From: Candidatus Dadabacteria bacterium
Lineage (GTDB): Bacteria; Desulfobacterota_D; UBA1144; Nemesobacterales; Nemesobacteraceae
Assembly (NCBI GenBank): GCA_009840385.1
Contig: VXNX01000006.1
Coordinates: 1-64,000, forward strand
Direction: 5' to 3'
DNA: 64,000 nt
Part shown: positions 2,224-28,799 of the stretch, piece after piece
Position numbering within the stretch: the first letter of the stretch is position 1
Layout: every line of letters begins with the position of its first letter
Position numbers and translations under genes: made by a program
The notes under the pieces: generated by a model
Told to the model about the DNA's origin: nothing
The model's input: only the letters and a program-made list of their open reading frames with translations
Databases searched by the model: none

Positions 2224-3666
2224 ATGAAATACAGACAAATTAATCCCATTAAGCAAGAACCTGTGAAGGCAGTACTCGTAGCAATCCAGGTCTTGATTCT
2301 TTTTGCGCTTTCTGGATGTTCTTCCGTTAATCCGCAACGTTGCGACGTTTCTATCCGTCAATCTGATGAGACAATTATCATAGGGAATCTGATTAGAGAT
2401 GCCAGCGGATCAGAATACGGTGCAATCCTCGTGCGCGACGGACACATTCTTGATATTGGCAAGATAAACGCCATAAAATCAAAAGCTCCCAATGCCTCGG
2501 TATTTGATTGCAGCAGTTCGTACATTTCGCCTGGCTTGATAAATCCGCACGAACACCCGGATTGGAGCGGAGGATTTCCGGACCCGATGACGCGTCCCGT
2601 GTATTCACACCGTGATCAATGGCGGGGCGTAGCCGGCCCGGAGTACTATAAGGTCGAGTTTGAGAGGGTTGAGGAAGATGTCCAGAAATTCTGGATAGAG
2701 CTCCGTCACCTTCTGTCCGGTACCACCACGATAGCCGGTTCAGGCGGCATTGAGGGACTCGTCAAAAATGCAGGTGGTCGCCCCGGAGACGAAGAAAGGT
2801 ACTTCTATCTTGCTGAGATGGAGACGTTTCCCTACGGTTTTGACGCTACCGAGGAACTCAGCGGGTTTTCTTGCCCATTAGCACCAAACGAGTCCCGCGA
2901 TCCCCGCAGCCATTTTCTTGAGTTTGAGGACAAACCGCCTTATGTACCACACATTGCGGAGGGAACAAACTGCACGGCGCAAATTGAAGGGAAGTTTTAT
3001 CTGGATTACGTCTCAAAGAACCCGGAGCGGCGTTACTCCCTTATCCACGGAGTGGGATTGAGCCGGTCAGACATCGAGCGGCTAAAGGACCTCGACGTGA
3101 CTCTTATCTGGTCGCCGAGGTCGAACGTGGTTCTTTACGGGACCACCGTGGATATTCCGAACGCGCTGCGGGCCGGCGCCCGAGTCGCGATCAGTACAGA
3201 TTGGTCATACTCGGGTTCCTACAATCTTCTTGAGGAATTTCGCTGTGCTGACCATATTGACAACACACAATGGGATGATCATCTGTCGGAAAGCGACTAC
3301 TGGCGTATGGCTACGGAGCACGCAGCGTACTCGCTGGACGTAGAGAAACTGACCGGCAAGCTGGAGCAAGGTCTCGCGGCGGATATTATGATATTCCGGA
3401 AGCGAACCAATGACCCGTTCGGCGACATGGTTTCATCAAAGGTATCGGATGTCATCGCGACGTTCGTTGACGGCGAACTTCTCAGTGGATATAGCGGTTC
3501 TTTCGACCTTTCCAAGCTTCCGACCCAATGCTCGCATCGTATCGGGCAGCATTTCATTTGCGTTGACTATGCCAAGGACTACTCCTTCAGTCATGAAGAA
3601 CTGCTGATTTCCAACACGAATGCGGTTCCCCTGTTTTCGCTGGACAGGCAAGCGAGTTGTGAATGA
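2224..3666 (+). CDS. Amidohydrolase-family lipoprotein (metal-dependent hydrolase)
   Basis: Predicted envelope-anchored member of the amidohydrolase superfamily (imidazolonepropionase/ATZ-TRZ-like). From the ATG at 2224 there is a signal peptide with lipobox LSGC (Cys32), so the enzyme should be lipid-anchored. The metal-binding HxH is in NPHEHPDW (H109, H111). Later come LIHGVGLS, SPRSN and the Asp of ISTDWSYSG, in the usual superfamily order, then a C-terminal AADIMIF segment. A longer form from TTG at 2170 is possible but would bury the signal peptide. The substrate is not predictable. There is no operon partner. Confidence 0.78.
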   Translation: MKYRQINPIKQEPVKAVLVAIQVLILFALSGCSSVNPQRCDVSIRQSDETIIIGNLIRDASGSEYGAILVRDGHILDIGKINAIKSKAPNASVFDCSSSYISPGLINPHEHPDWSGGFPDPMTRPVYSHRDQWRGVAGPEYYKVEFERVEEDVQKFWIELRHLLSGTTTIAGSGGIEGLVKNAGGRPGDEERYFYLAEMETFPYGFDATEELSGFSCPLAPNESRDPRSHFLEFEDKPPYVPHIAEGTNCTAQIEGKFYLDYVSKNPERRYSLIHGVGLSRSDIERLKDLDVTLIWSPRSNVVLYGTTVDIPNALRAGARVAISTDWSYSGSYNLLEEFRCADHIDNTQWDDHLSESDYWRMATEHAAYSLDVEKLTGKLEQGLAADIMIFRKRTNDPFGDMVSSKVSDVIATFVDGELLSGYSGSFDLSKLPTQCSHRIGQHFICVDYAKDYSFSHEELLISNTNAVPLFSLDRQASCE

Positions 3667-24573: not shown

Positions 24574-24603
24574 TTGTCTTATGCCTTCCTTCCGTGCTAT
24601 AAT
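24574..24603 (+). promoter_or_regulatory. Promoter reading into the first pseudoknot RNA element
   Basis: TTGTCT (24574-24579), 18 nt, TATAAT (24598-24603), with GTGC before the -10 box. The predicted start at about 24610-24611 coincides with the first base of the structured element. The second copy of the element also has GTGC plus a -10-like box immediately upstream. Confidence 0.6.
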
Positions 24604-24610
24604 TTTAATC

Positions 24611-24719
24611 GCTAGCAGTTGGAACAGTCCGCTTGTCGGGCTTTCCGTTAAATAAAACACCCCTCTGGGGGAAATAGGCGGAGCGTCTGAAACTGTTCTG
24701 ACTGCTAGCAGAGCCCGAC
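24611..24719 (+). ncRNA. Structured pseudoknot leader RNA, copy 1 (unassigned cis-regulatory motif)
   Basis: Four helices can be drawn. Stem A: 24611-24628 with 24692-24709, 18 continuous pairs including two wobbles. Stem B: GTCGGGCT 24635-24642 with AGCCCGAC 24712-24719. It is interleaved with A, so it forms a pseudoknot. Stem C: TCCGT 24644-24648 with GCGGA 24678-24682. Hairpin D: CCCC 24660-24663 with GGGG 24667-24670. The core AATAAAACACCC...GGGGGAAATA recurs in copy 2. The element starts at the predicted +1 and ends 41 nt before the lipoprotein ATG. CCGAC (24715-24719) can alternatively pair with GTCGG (24730-24734), which would exclude stem B. I could not match it to a known riboswitch or ribozyme. 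Confidence 0.68.
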
Positions 24720-24759
24720 GCCTACGTGTGTCGGAGATCAGAAAATTCAGGAGGACGTT

Positions 24760-25941
24760 ATGAGGGTTGTTCCGTCTTTTTTCGTAGTTTTGTTTTTTGT
24801 CGTTGGTTGCGGAGGTGGTGGTGGAAATGAAACTCCAAGTGACCGACACCCCACAGCCCGAACTGCGGTGGGTCAATTTAAAGATGCCAACGTTGCAGGA
24901 CTGAGCTATGTCTCAGGAGGGCAGAGTGGAGTTACCGATTCAGAGGGAAGCTTTACCTACGAAGTTGGAGAAAGTGTTGTGTTCTCGGTCGGAGGTGTAA
25001 CATTAGGAGAAACCGAAGGAAAGTCGGTTGTTACCCCAGTAGATTTAGTTGAGCGAGGCAGTTCAAGTTCTGAGCCTGTGCTGAACACTGTGCGTTTTCT
25101 CATATCTCTGGATGAAGACAATGACCTTTCTAACGGTATAAACATCCCTGAAGAGGTTCGTGAGCTCGCGCTACAATGGACTTTTATACAGATTCTTTCC
25201 GATAGTTTGGATTTCGAGCAACAACTGGAGAGAATGAGATCCGATTTACAAGAAAGATTTAGTAGATATGAATCGTACGAAATCCCGGGAAATGCGACCG
25301 CAAGGAACCATTTGGAAAGTACTCTTCGGTGTTCCTATTCGGGTGCATACACCGGAACATACGGGGGTACTGATCAAGGTAATTTCGGAGTTTTGATTGA
25401 CGCACGTAGTGGAAGTGCGTCCGGTATTGCTTACAGCACTCAATATGATAATTACATCACACTTACAGGCACAAGATCCATCAGCTATGATCAGAATGTC
25501 GTATTCGCAAGTGGAGATACAGATGAAGGAACAGAATTCAATGGCCAGTTTACTTCTGTGAACACGGTTCAAGGTCGGTGGGGGCATCCACTTGACTCAA
25601 GTATCGGTGGCAGTTTCTCCGGCAGGAGAATCGGTGGTGATCAATATGCGGTATACCGTGGTACCGGAACTTGGCGAACTGATAGTTTTGACGAGTACGG
25701 AGTCTTCACTTTTGACATTAATGATTCGGGCAGGATAACAGGACTCGCATATAACATTGCTTATGATATATCTGGAAATCTTAATGGATCACTTTCGGGA
25801 ACCAACATATCAGCTACTACAAGCGATGGGACAAGGGTTACCGGAACGCTAGACCGAGAAACTGGTGTCCTAAGAGGTAGGTTCGATGACTCGGCAGGGT
25901 TCTCGGGCACATTTGAAGGAAGCGGATGCCAGCTCAACTAG
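24760..25941 (+). CDS. Lipoprotein with beta-rich repeats, preceded by structured leader
   Basis: A 393-residue secreted lipoprotein. The short signal peptide ends in lipobox VVGC (Cys17), followed by a Gly run. Residues about 37-150 contain VTDSEGSFTYEVGESVVFSVGGV, a bacterial surface-protein module common in lipoproteins (read as segments 59-81). The C-terminal half (about 185-393) has repeated Gly/Ser/Thr-rich beta strands such as GTYGGTDQGNFGV and GSLSGTNISATTSDG. No enzyme motif was seen. The start has GGAGG 6 nt upstream. Its leader carries RNA element copy 1. Confidence 0.75.
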   Translation: MRVVPSFFVVLFFVVGCGGGGGNETPSDRHPTARTAVGQFKDANVAGLSYVSGGQSGVTDSEGSFTYEVGESVVFSVGGVTLGETEGKSVVTPVDLVERGSSSSEPVLNTVRFLISLDEDNDLSNGINIPEEVRELALQWTFIQILSDSLDFEQQLERMRSDLQERFSRYESYEIPGNATARNHLESTLRCSYSGAYTGTYGGTDQGNFGVLIDARSGSASGIAYSTQYDNYITLTGTRSISYDQNVVFASGDTDEGTEFNGQFTSVNTVQGRWGHPLDSSIGGSFSGRRIGGDQYAVYRGTGTWRTDSFDEYGVFTFDINDSGRITGLAYNIAYDISGNLNGSLSGTNISATTSDGTRVTGTLDRETGVLRGRFDDSAGFSGTFEGSGCQLN

Positions 25942-25984: not shown

Positions 25985-26415
25985 GTGAGCTTCTACAGGC
26001 TCTTTCAGAAGTTCCCGGATGAACAGTCTGCGAGGCTGTATTTTGAGGAAGAGCGTTGGGGGAAGGGGGCGTTATTGCCCGCATTGCGGAAGCGTGAGAA
26101 CTTCCGAAATCAAGAATCACAAACCTATGCCCTATCGGTGCAAGGATTGTCGCAAGTATTTCAGCGTCCGGACAAACAGCGTGCTTGCCGAGAGCAGGGT
26201 TCCTCTTCACGAATGGATTCTGGCTGTTTTCCTGATGACTACGAATCTTAAAGGTGTATCAAGTTACAAGCTGACGAGAGCTATTTTGGCGGTCGCTTTA
26301 GAACATGCACGCTTCAAGAAGAATGTTCATAGGAGGAGCTGGGCTAACGGACAAAACTCCCGTAGTCGGCGGAAAATCCCGCAAGACGAAGAAGGTCAAG
26401 GTCACCCTCCGTAAC
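25985..26415 (+). pseudogene. IS1595-family transposase remnant (frameshifted, internally deleted)
   Basis: The N-terminal part (FYRLFQKFPDEQSARLYFEEERWG) reads from GTG 25985; the zinc-ribbon part (GRYCPHCGSVRTSEI, YRCKDCRKYFSVRTNSV, LAVFLMTTNLKGVSSYKL) is in another frame around 26060-26270. A third fragment (DKTPVVGGKSRKTKKVKV) lies near 26350-26400. These are recognisable IS1595 transposase pieces, but most of the DDE catalytic domain is missing and at least two frameshifts are needed. I did not find terminal inverted repeats, so the element boundaries are unclear. It cannot be functional as it stands. Confidence 0.72.
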
Positions 26416-26550
26416 ACCTTTCACTTCTTCTGCGAATCTGAAGCATTCATTAAAAACCAAGTAAGCCCTGTCGCCACATTTTGCCTTTGTCTCGGCGTAA
26501 ACCACCCCCGTGACCGCAAACAAGGTCACAAAAATCAACAATATTCTCAT
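26344..26550 (-). CDS. Small secreted protein preceded by structured leader
   Basis: A 68-residue frame with a clear signal peptide (MRILLIFVTLFAVTGVVYA, cleavage after YA) and two Cys in the mature part (KCGDR, NECFRF). The ATG has AGGAG 6 nt upstream on the minus strand, which supports translation. The last ~25 residues are antisense to the IS1595 relic, so the original C-terminus may have been replaced. Its leader contains RNA element copy 2 (26610-26717). The function is unknown. Confidence 0.55.
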   Translation of the reverse strand: MRILLIFVTLFAVTGVVYAETKAKCGDRAYLVFNECFRFAEEVKGVTEGDLDLLRLAGFSADYGSFVR

Positions 26551-26609
26551 AGCAATCTCCTAAGTATTTGGGGTTAACAGAGGTGGCACAGGGTGCCTCG
26601 AACGTGGGT

Positions 26610-26717
26610 GTCGGGTCCTGCTGACATTCAAGAGACTTGAAAGTTCCGCTTATTTCCCGGATGGGTGTTGTATTGTGGCGGAGACCCGACATGGGGCGGG
26701 TTCTCCTGAATGTCAGC
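26610..26717 (-). ncRNA. Structured pseudoknot leader RNA, copy 2 (unassigned cis-regulatory motif)
   Basis: Same architecture as 24611-24719, read on the minus strand. Stem A: 26702-26717 with 26620-26635, 16 pairs including one wobble. Stem B: 26683-26690 with 26610-26617 (GTCGGGTC with GACCCGAC), interleaved with A. Stem C: GCGGA/TCCGC at 26678-26682 and 26645-26649. Hairpin D: CCC...GGG near 26656-26665. The two nucleotides between the 3' strands of A and B are AG in both copies. The core AATACAACACCC...GGGAAATAAGCGGA nearly matches copy 1, while stem A differs completely in sequence. That difference is compensatory change, which supports RNA-level selection. An extra 5-bp hairpin (GGCAC/GTGCC) follows before the small ORF. 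Confidence 0.66.
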
Positions 26718-26723
26718 ATTCTG

Positions 26724-26733
26724 ACTGTAGCAC
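26724..26733 (-). promoter_or_regulatory. -10-like box upstream of RNA element copy 2
   Basis: On the minus strand GTGC-TACAGT precedes the element by 6 nt. Copy 1 has GTGC-TATAAT 7 nt before its element. No convincing -35 box was found, so an extended -10 or a different sigma factor is possible. Confidence 0.4.
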
Positions 26734-26822: not shown

Positions 26823-28799
26823 ATGAAACTTAGAAAATTTACAGTAAAAGAATTTAGAAGCATTTGGGACTCGAATGCTATCGAAGTTGATGACAAGGTA
26901 ACCTGTCTGGTCGGCAAAAATGAATCTGGCAAAACAGCGTTACTCCACGCACTATATAGAACTAACCCGATTATTGCCAAGGATGCTCTCTTTGACGAAA
27001 CCTACGATTATCCAAAGCGTGAAGTTGAAGATTACCGGCTCAGCATTCAAAACGGAGAACGCAAAGAAGCTGTAGTTGTTGAAAGCGTATATGATCTCGA
27101 AGAGGATGACATAGAGATTGTTTCCGAAAAGTTCGGGCCAGATGCTTTAAAAGAATCTTTTTTTACTCTTAGTACATATTATGGCGAACGAAACAGACAA
27201 TTTCGCCTAGAAGCTAACGACAAAGCAGCAATTATGTATCTGTCTAAAAACCCTGATCTTCCAATTCCTTTATCAGAAAAGTTAGTAGCGACAAACAATT
27301 GGGATGAGTTTATACAAATACTGCGAGATGCAGAGACAGAACAAACGGAAACTGTTTCTAACTTATTAGAATTAGCCGAAAAGATTGAAGAAGGAGAAAA
27401 TCTGGCACATTACATCTATAATTCCTTGCTTCGTCCTCGCATACCTAAGTTCCTGTATTTTGACGAATACTATCAGATGCAGGGTTGTGCAAACATTAAT
27501 GCGTTGATTCAACGAGAAGAAGAAGGACAACTAGAGGGTTCTGATCGCCCTCTTCTTGGACTTATAAGCCTTGCACGGCTCAATGTAAATGAACTTGTTA
27601 ACATCACCAACACTACAGAACTCAAAAACAAACTGGAAGGTGCAAGCAATCATCTTACCAGACGCATAATGAAATACTGGTCGCAAAATAAACATATCAG
27701 AATAAGGTTTGATGTTCGCGACGCAAAGTCGAGAGACCCACAAGGCATGCAAGAAGGGGTTAATATATGGGGTGAGATTTATGACACGATGCATTTAGCA
27801 CACACACCATTAGGTTCTAGGTCCCGAGGTTTTGTCTGGTTTTTCTCGTTTTTAGCTTGGTATGAGAGCGTCAAAAAGAAACAACAGAATGTAATTTTAT
27901 TGCTTGATGAACCAGGGCTTTCGTTGCATGGACGTGCACAAGCTGACTTGCTTGAATACTTTGAAGCGGAACTTTCCGACCACCAACTTATATATTCAAC
28001 GCATTCTCCCTTTATGGTTGACCCACAACATTTTGATCGTGTTCGGATTGTCCAAGATTTAAGCATTGACGCTGATCAAGAATTGCCAAGAGAAGAAGAC
28101 GGCACAAAAGTCTTAACTAACGTTTTTGACGCAACAGAGGATAGCCTTTTTCCTCTACAAGGTGCTCTTGGATATGAAATACAACAAACGCTTTTTATTG
28201 GACCTAATTGTCTGATAGTCGAAGGACCCTCCGATATGTTCTACATTCGAGCGATTTCCTGTGAGCTTGAACGTGAGGGCCGGGAAGGTTTGTCGGAGAA
28301 ATGGGTTATCACGCCGGTTGGAGGTAGCGGAAAAGTCCCTGCTTTTGTTTCTCTTCTTGCTCCCCAAAAGGGCTTGAATGTCACCACCTTGTTAGACATC
28401 AAGAAAAAAGATAAGCAGATTATCGAGGATTTATATAAAAAGAAGTTGCTTAAGAAGAAACAGGTTCTGACTTATGCCGAGTTCATAGGCAAAAAAGAGG
28501 CTGATATAGAGGACTTGTTTGATCGTGAATTTTATGTTGGACTTCTGAATGCCGAGTTTAAGAGGGAGTTGAAAAAACCTATAGATCCATCGAAACTAAA
28601 CGAAAGGGTGCCGAGAATACTTAAAGCCATAGAAGATCATCTTTCTGAAAACCCCTCTGCCTTCAAATCAGGCTCTTTTAGCCATTATCGTCCAGCACAA
28701 TACTTTACCGAAAATATAACTTACCTGTGGGAAACAATCTCTAGTGAAACGAAAGACACATTTGAAGGTGTTTTTCAAAAACTCAATAATTTACTATAA
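26823..28799 (+). CDS. OLD-family ATPase/TOPRIM endonuclease-like protein
   Basis: A 658-residue protein with an SMC/RecF-like ABC ATPase followed by a TOPRIM domain. Walker A GKNESGKT is at residues 31-38. Walker B is VILLLDEPG with D362/E363, followed by the H-loop YSTHSPFM. TOPRIM acidic residues are E467 in LIVEGPSD and D525 in TTLLDIKKKD. OLD proteins nick or cut DNA and many act in phage defence (P2 Old, GajA). No UvrD-like GajB helicase is adjacent, so this is not a complete Gabija. The gene is visibly AT-rich and sits beside an IS relic, suggesting acquisition. Confidence 0.85.
   Translation: MKLRKFTVKEFRSIWDSNAIEVDDKVTCLVGKNESGKTALLHALYRTNPIIAKDALFDETYDYPKREVEDYRLSIQNGERKEAVVVESVYDLEEDDIEIVSEKFGPDALKESFFTLSTYYGERNRQFRLEANDKAAIMYLSKNPDLPIPLSEKLVATNNWDEFIQILRDAETEQTETVSNLLELAEKIEEGENLAHYIYNSLLRPRIPKFLYFDEYYQMQGCANINALIQREEEGQLEGSDRPLLGLISLARLNVNELVNITNTTELKNKLEGASNHLTRRIMKYWSQNKHIRIRFDVRDAKSRDPQGMQEGVNIWGEIYDTMHLAHTPLGSRSRGFVWFFSFLAWYESVKKKQQNVILLLDEPGLSLHGRAQADLLEYFEAELSDHQLIYSTHSPFMVDPQHFDRVRIVQDLSIDADQELPREEDGTKVLTNVFDATEDSLFPLQGALGYEIQQTLFIGPNCLIVEGPSDMFYIRAISCELEREGREGLSEKWVITPVGGSGKVPAFVSLLAPQKGLNVTTLLDIKKKDKQIIEDLYKKKLLKKKQVLTYAEFIGKKEADIEDLFDREFYVGLLNAEFKRELKKPIDPSKLNERVPRILKAIEDHLSENPSAFKSGSFSHYRPAQYFTENITYLWETISSETKDTFEGVFQKLNNLL

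Follow-up and report, generated by a model that had tools for sequence, protein, structure and literature searches.

A pseudoknotted leader RNA of Candidatus Dadabacteria, probably related to phage sRNA-Xcc1, is found before genes for predicted exported proteins

The window analyzed in this work, a stretch of 64,000 nt from contig VXNX01000006.1 of a Candidatus Dadabacteria bacterium, contains two copies of an element that a preliminary description had taken for a pseudoknotted leader RNA. This raises the questions of whether such an RNA is real, to which family it belongs and how it may act on the genes behind it. Both copies were found at the positions given there, 24611–24719 on the plus strand (copy 1) and 26610–26717 on the minus strand (copy 2), and each has the fold claimed, in which stems A and B are interleaved and an AG spacer separates their 3′ strands. 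We thus confirmed that the knotted RNA with two copies in the window is real.

In copy 1 (plus strand) the 5′ strand of stem A (GCTAGCAGTTGGAACAGT, 24611–24628) pairs over 18 bp with the 3′ strand (ACTGTTCTGACTGCTAGC, 24692–24709). The 8-bp stem B consists of a 5′ strand GTCGGGCT (24635–24642) and a 3′ strand AGCCCGAC (24712–24719), which forms the pseudoknot and follows the AG spacer (24710–24711; AG or AA in most elements). Stems C and D make up a single hairpin (24643–24683) with a conserved A-rich internal loop composed of AATAAAACACCC (24651–24662) and GGGGGAAATA (24667–24676). In copy 2 (minus strand) the same order was revealed: A5′ GCTGACATTCAGGAGA (26702–26717), B5′ GTCGGGTC (26683–26690), hairpin C/D with AATACAACACCC and GGGAAATA (26645–26682), A3′ TCTCTTGAATGTCAGC (26620–26635), the AG spacer (26618–26619) and B3′ GACCCGAC (26610–26617). 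As had been proposed, stem A differs in sequence between the copies yet pairs in both, over 16–17 bp in copy 2. The nested fold is lower in energy than dinucleotide shuffles by 4.7 SD for copy 1 and 4.4 SD for copy 2, and 0 of 200 shuffles equalled it. In both window copies and in most relatives B3′ is followed by RCC, a signature of RNase P substrates (GCC at 24720–24722 in copy 1, ACC at 26607–26609 in copy 2).

When used as a DNA query against its own genome, copy 1 retrieved only itself. A third copy, which also precedes a signal-peptide gene, was found on another contig (G000:C8, ~1194–1315) with an Rfam model and then with model R1, built from copies 1–3. The check suggested in the preliminary description, a covariance model searched against related genomes, came out in favour of the element: over 61 genomes R1 gave 30 matches, 27 of them new and located in relatives, with E down to 3e-35. 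Within the genus 13 of the 14 genomes carried matches, as did two genomes from one further genus, and all of these are Ca. Dadabacteria; the remaining genomes of the 61 searched contained no match. A DNA pattern derived from the family likewise matched, among named genomes, those of Candidatus Dadabacteria only; the strict Dadabacteria pattern had no match in viral contigs.

Pairing was analyzed on 18 distinct elements and includes the strands of both window copies. Standard pairs occupied 96.8% of the pair cells vs 77.2 ± 1.1 in shuffles, two-sided changes numbered 111 vs 31 in shuffles, and pairing fell to 35–48% when the partner was slid by one column. Helix A is 97.9% paired, and 15 of its 16 pairs co-vary with changes on both sides. 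Pseudoknot stem B is less variable (two pairs change on both sides and three on one) and is 97.2% paired; as A, C and D, but not B, guided the fitting of the alignment, the pairing of B was not forced by it.

The coordinates of the fold stood, but the conserved block proved to extend slightly further, to about 24735–24740, and to include a small hairpin overlapping B3′ (H3, see below). Two elements, L010 and L012, have in common a 138-nt block (98.6% identity) that begins with stem A and ends with H3, and their flanks and genes are unrelated; such a block therefore marks the natural unit.

Copy 1 is preceded by an extended −10 box TATAAT (TGCTATAAT; 24598–24603, plus strand), which ends 7 nt before stem A, and copy 2 by an extended box TACAGT (TGCTACAGT; 26724–26729, minus strand). 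The claim of a −10-like box just before stem A holds for the family as well: the box is mostly an extended TGnTATAAT, and in 15 of 18 elements 6–8 nt separate its end from stem A. As this is the typical distance from −10 to +1, we infer that the first nucleotide of stem A is also that of the transcript, which would place the A5′ strand at the very 5′ end of the transcript.

These features bear on a reading at the DNA level, namely that the element is a mobile inverted repeat (MITE-like or a recombination site) whose hairpins are by-products. Identical blocks of 126–138 nt do occur at unrelated loci (L010/L012; L008/L022/L030), and IS1595 genes are located near copies 1–3. However, the copies are oriented towards the gene with the −10 box at a fixed distance, the compensation of 15 of 16 stem A pairs would be needless for a transposase-bound end, and the conserved parts lie both within and beyond the inverted repeat. 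We regard this reading as very improbable, and consider it highly probable that the element is a structured cis leader.

The genes behind the leader appear mostly to encode exported or lipid-anchored proteins. Copy 1 precedes a Shine-Dalgarno sequence GGAGG (24750–24754) and a gene for a 393-aa lipoprotein-like product without a Pfam family (24760–25941, plus strand; lipobox MRVVPSFFVVLFFVVGC). Residues 28–135 of this protein resemble a domain found in SslE/AcfD lipoproteins (NCBIfam, E 2e-7, far below the cut-off). Behind copy 2 lies a gene for a 68-aa exported protein with the signal peptide MRILLIFVTLFAVTGVVYAE (26344–26550, minus strand), a homologue of the gene behind another element of the family (L007). 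In agreement with the claim that the leaders precede signal-peptide genes, a signal-like N-terminus was called in 19 of 23 downstream genes and in 9 of 55 other window genes (Fisher p about 5e-8), by a simple hydropathy rule that is crude and with some of the 23 genes related to each other. In several downstream genes the DNA coding for the signal peptide is alike (63–83% over 54 nt) but the mature domains are not; hence it seems that the leader moved together with the signal peptide, a lead to be read with the caution that short hydrophobic stretches can resemble each other.

To which family, then, does the RNA belong? The preliminary description called it undescribed and could match it to no known class; the former is right only in part, and the latter was not supported. 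At curated cut-offs Rfam indeed gave no match in the window; at relaxed thresholds the best match was sRNA-Xcc1 (RF02221), with 35.8 and 28.6 bits for the window copies (cut-off 53). The same model scored 32–40 bits (best 39.7) in four relatives and exceeded the cut-off in none of 58 Dadabacteria genomes. Reciprocally, when 30 phage loci were tested with R1, built from Dadabacteria only, it matched 9 of them where RF02221 does. What stood of the earlier proposal is a structured, co-varying and by prediction 5′-terminal leader before exported-protein genes; its B/C/D core is related to sRNA-Xcc1 but divergent, and the match becomes visible only at a relaxed score threshold.

The window copies have in common with RF02221 an outer stem (B corresponds to P1, and in copy 1 the match begins at B5′), the hairpin C/D (P2) with the loop AAUACAAuACCC..GGGGAAUAA, the RCC after the outer stem and the leader position before a gene. 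They differ from it in that no hairpin P3 follows P2 ahead of the 3′ strand of P1, and the A3′ strand, which in copy 1 sits where the phage RNA has P3 plus a′, pairs instead with A5′. This adds a stem of 16–18 bp, formed with what is predicted to be the transcript's 5′ end and knotted with P1; among the Dadabacteria elements this pairing of A3′ with A5′ upstream of P1 spans 16–20 bp. An independent RNA that resembles sRNA-Xcc1 by chance or convergence would account for scores under the Rfam cut-off and for the absence of P3, but hardly for the reciprocal model matches and for a common 12-nt loop, P1 and 3′ RCC in the same order, and we hold it to be highly improbable. A relationship of the window RNA to sRNA-Xcc1 is, judged on these features, very probable. 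As the RF02221 scores are below the cut-off, descent from the phage type, or a core common with it, is likely rather than proven, and the common core might be convergent.

sRNA-Xcc1 is characterized as a stand-alone RNA of ~88 nt whose 5′ end lies at P1; RACE in X. campestris gave 88 nt (PMC2996969), and the RNA was found in integron cassettes with symE (PMC12444791). A search with a pattern of the shared loop revealed at least 120 stretches of viral contigs. Among the matches listed, RF02221 was detected at its curated cut-off in 23 of 25 loci scanned (5/5 and 18/20), phage loci reaching 55–80 bits, and the gene behind the RNA mostly starts 75–105 nt after the loop. The 86 downstream phage proteins among these matches include P22_AR_N (13), Bro-N (12), KilA-N (12), Phage_pRha (11), AntA (11) and ORF6N (9), and PHROGs names many of them anti-repressors.

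In the phage RNAs P2 is followed by the hairpin P3, which has a loop of ~7 nt, and P3 in turn precedes the 3′ strand of P1. Over the 86 unique loci among the matches listed, the pairing score of the P3 loop with its own Shine-Dalgarno region averaged 8.75 vs 5.49 ± 0.12 for swapped partners, and that of the stretch after P3 with a site further upstream was 6.87 vs 5.13 ± 0.12 (0/1000 permutations in both cases, in a test that takes the unique loci to be independent, whereas some of them are related). RCC follows P1 in 71 of the 86 phage RNAs listed, against a background of 8.8%. The same design is known from the C4 RNA of phage P1, which has stems P1, P2 and P3, and a loop UUUCACUAAC against GUUAGUGAGG, and in which stem P1 is followed by ACC. 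According to PMC5320573, RNase P cleaves C4 where P1 begins, and its loops a′ and b′ are the parts that bind the target mRNA. Thus, the phage sRNA-Xcc1 looks like a self-antisense switch of C4 design before antirepressor genes. No literature linking sRNA-Xcc1 with C4 was found among the papers covered, few of which were subscription papers. In this way a mechanism-level reading is gained for a family that Rfam lists only as sRNA and that has been discussed in connection with virulence as an sRNA acting in trans: from their sequences, its phage members are predicted to base-pair with the ribosome-binding site of the adjoining downstream gene.

It should be mentioned that isrK, C4 and sRNA-Xcc1 RNAs were observed within about 1.4 kb of each other, before successive antirepressor genes and like interchangeable cassettes, in two phage loci (L079, 2422–3753; L137, 843–1672). 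Another phage copy of sRNA-Xcc1 (L093, about 3115–3175) carries a tandem-repeated loop motif AATACAACT ahead of the normal loop.

The window copies resemble the C4 antisense RNA of phages P1/P7 (RF01695) in the order P1, P2, antisense segment and 3′ RCC and in being the leader of a presumably co-transcribed gene. They differ from it in the A-rich loop of C/D, which the P2 of C4 lacks, and apparently in having no loop complementary to a ribosome-binding site; RF01695 gave no match in the window up to E=10. The Dadabacteria RNA might still act as a C4-like antisense on the mRNA that it belongs to, in which case its linker and A3′ would pair with the downstream ribosome-binding site in competition with A5′. 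Its relatives appear to act so, the RCC after B3′ fits processing by RNase P, and complementary segments are present in some elements (L013, GTCTGATCT/GGATCAGAT; L015, GAACTTCT/GGAGGTTC; L009, AACGTCC/GGATGTT). Over all elements, however, linker pairing is hardly above that of swapped partners (51/2000 and 214/5000 permutations, in a small sample where few elements drive the signal), and the anti-Shine-Dalgarno hairpin P3 is absent, so we rate this mode as quite unlikely. A search of the genome for a second site for the stem A strands of copies 1–3 found none, which makes a trans target with extended pairing unlikely. With no second site for the A strands, and linker pairing confined to a few elements, a cis-acting 5′-terminal leader is preferred, and RNA–RNA pairing would be the ancestral mode to which the relatives point.

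Our preferred reading, to which we give somewhat better than even chances, is therefore a 5′-terminal cis-acting mRNA leader that descends from, or has its core in common with, the phage sRNA-Xcc1 type and is sealed by stem A. In Dadabacteria P1 (B), P2 (C/D), the A-rich loop and RCC would have been retained and P3 lost, with A3′ in its place pairing with A5′ where the transcript is predicted to begin. A message beginning in such a sealed helix would be protected from decay that depends on the 5′ end. mRNA stabilizers at the 5′ terminus are known, for example the stem-loop of the ompA leader. The window copies would be like it in that the message begins in a helix, but a simple stabilizer needs neither a pseudoknot nor a conserved core.

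Two local hairpins compete with stem B: H0, in which ACCCG ahead of B5′ pairs with CGGGT of B5′ (in copy 1 AGTCCG/CGGGCT, 24626–24642), and H3, formed by B3′ with the sequence after it (in copy 1 CCGACGC/GTGTCGG, 24715–24734, within the segment corresponding to the 138-nt block). Both still pair where B changes (e.g., L013, L031), and the score of the own partner was reached in 8/2000 permutations for H0 and 38/2000 for H3, which in this small sample is modest support. In copy 1 there is little steric room for A and B at once, with a loop of 6 nt between A5′ and B5′, and a nested alternative fold, A+H0+C/D+H3, does not need B to be stable; hence pseudoknot B may form only at times, or never, in the mature RNA. 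An exchange of B with H0 and H3 would give two states of the leader, which might set the stability or the translation of the exported-protein mRNA, the balance being possibly tipped by a protein, by a ligand in the A-rich loop or by RNase P or RNase III cutting. This particular mechanism, control of stability or translation through a switch between B and H0+H3, is a tentative proposal with a little less than even chances. Accessibility of the Shine-Dalgarno sequence, compared between folds with and without B, changed in no consistent direction.

The A-rich loop also invites the reading of a riboswitch or a protein-binding leader, in which a ligand or protein bound in the C/D internal loop stabilizes pseudoknot B. 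The near invariance of the loop (AATAnAAnACCC/GGGRAATA) beside a freely varying stem A, the competition of B with H0 and H3 and a cell-envelope theme common to the downstream genes would agree with it. On the other hand, phage RNAs before antirepressors keep this loop, which makes a common metabolite unlikely there, and neither a terminator nor consistent sequestration of the Shine-Dalgarno sequence was found. We consider this an unlikely explanation.

On the reading of a sealed cis-acting leader, an RNA that serves control in phages seems to have been recruited for bacterial gene regulation. It can be hypothesized, at less than even odds, that a C4-type self-antisense leader widespread in phages, found before six families of antirepressor N-terminal domains, became in Dadabacteria a 5′-sealed pseudoknot switch that moves between exported-protein genes as a module of promoter, leader and signal peptide, and that it constitutes a new RNA class with a traceable phage origin. 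One RNA family would then display a clear structural change, its antisense arm having swapped partners from the downstream ribosome-binding site to the 5′ end of its own transcript. Such a reading also names a testable exported-protein regulon in an uncultured lineage.

Several features adjoining the elements should also be described. A remnant of an IS1595-type transposase gene lies between copies 1 and 2 (26019–26414 of the window), and an intact IS1595 transposase gene adjoins copy 3 (L003, 1386–2237). Divergent from copy 2 is a gene for an OLD/AriA/PtuA-like AAA ATPase (26823–28799), which resembles proteins of anti-phage defence or of the retron-effector type. We considered a retron RNA on account of this neighbour and rejected it, as inspection by eye revealed no reverse transcriptase among the neighbouring ORFs. 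An RNA of a type III toxin-antitoxin system was also rejected: it needs tandem pseudoknot repeats before a ToxN-like gene, but here each leader contains one copy, and the downstream proteins are predicted to be exported and belong to no Pfam or PADLOC family.

Some members of the family depart from the common architecture. In two half elements (L018, 1501–1568; L029, 1501–1566) an ORF begins directly after the C/D hairpin and replaces A3′ and B3′, and in element L026 (1501–1652) a long additional hairpin is inserted into the loop of stem D.
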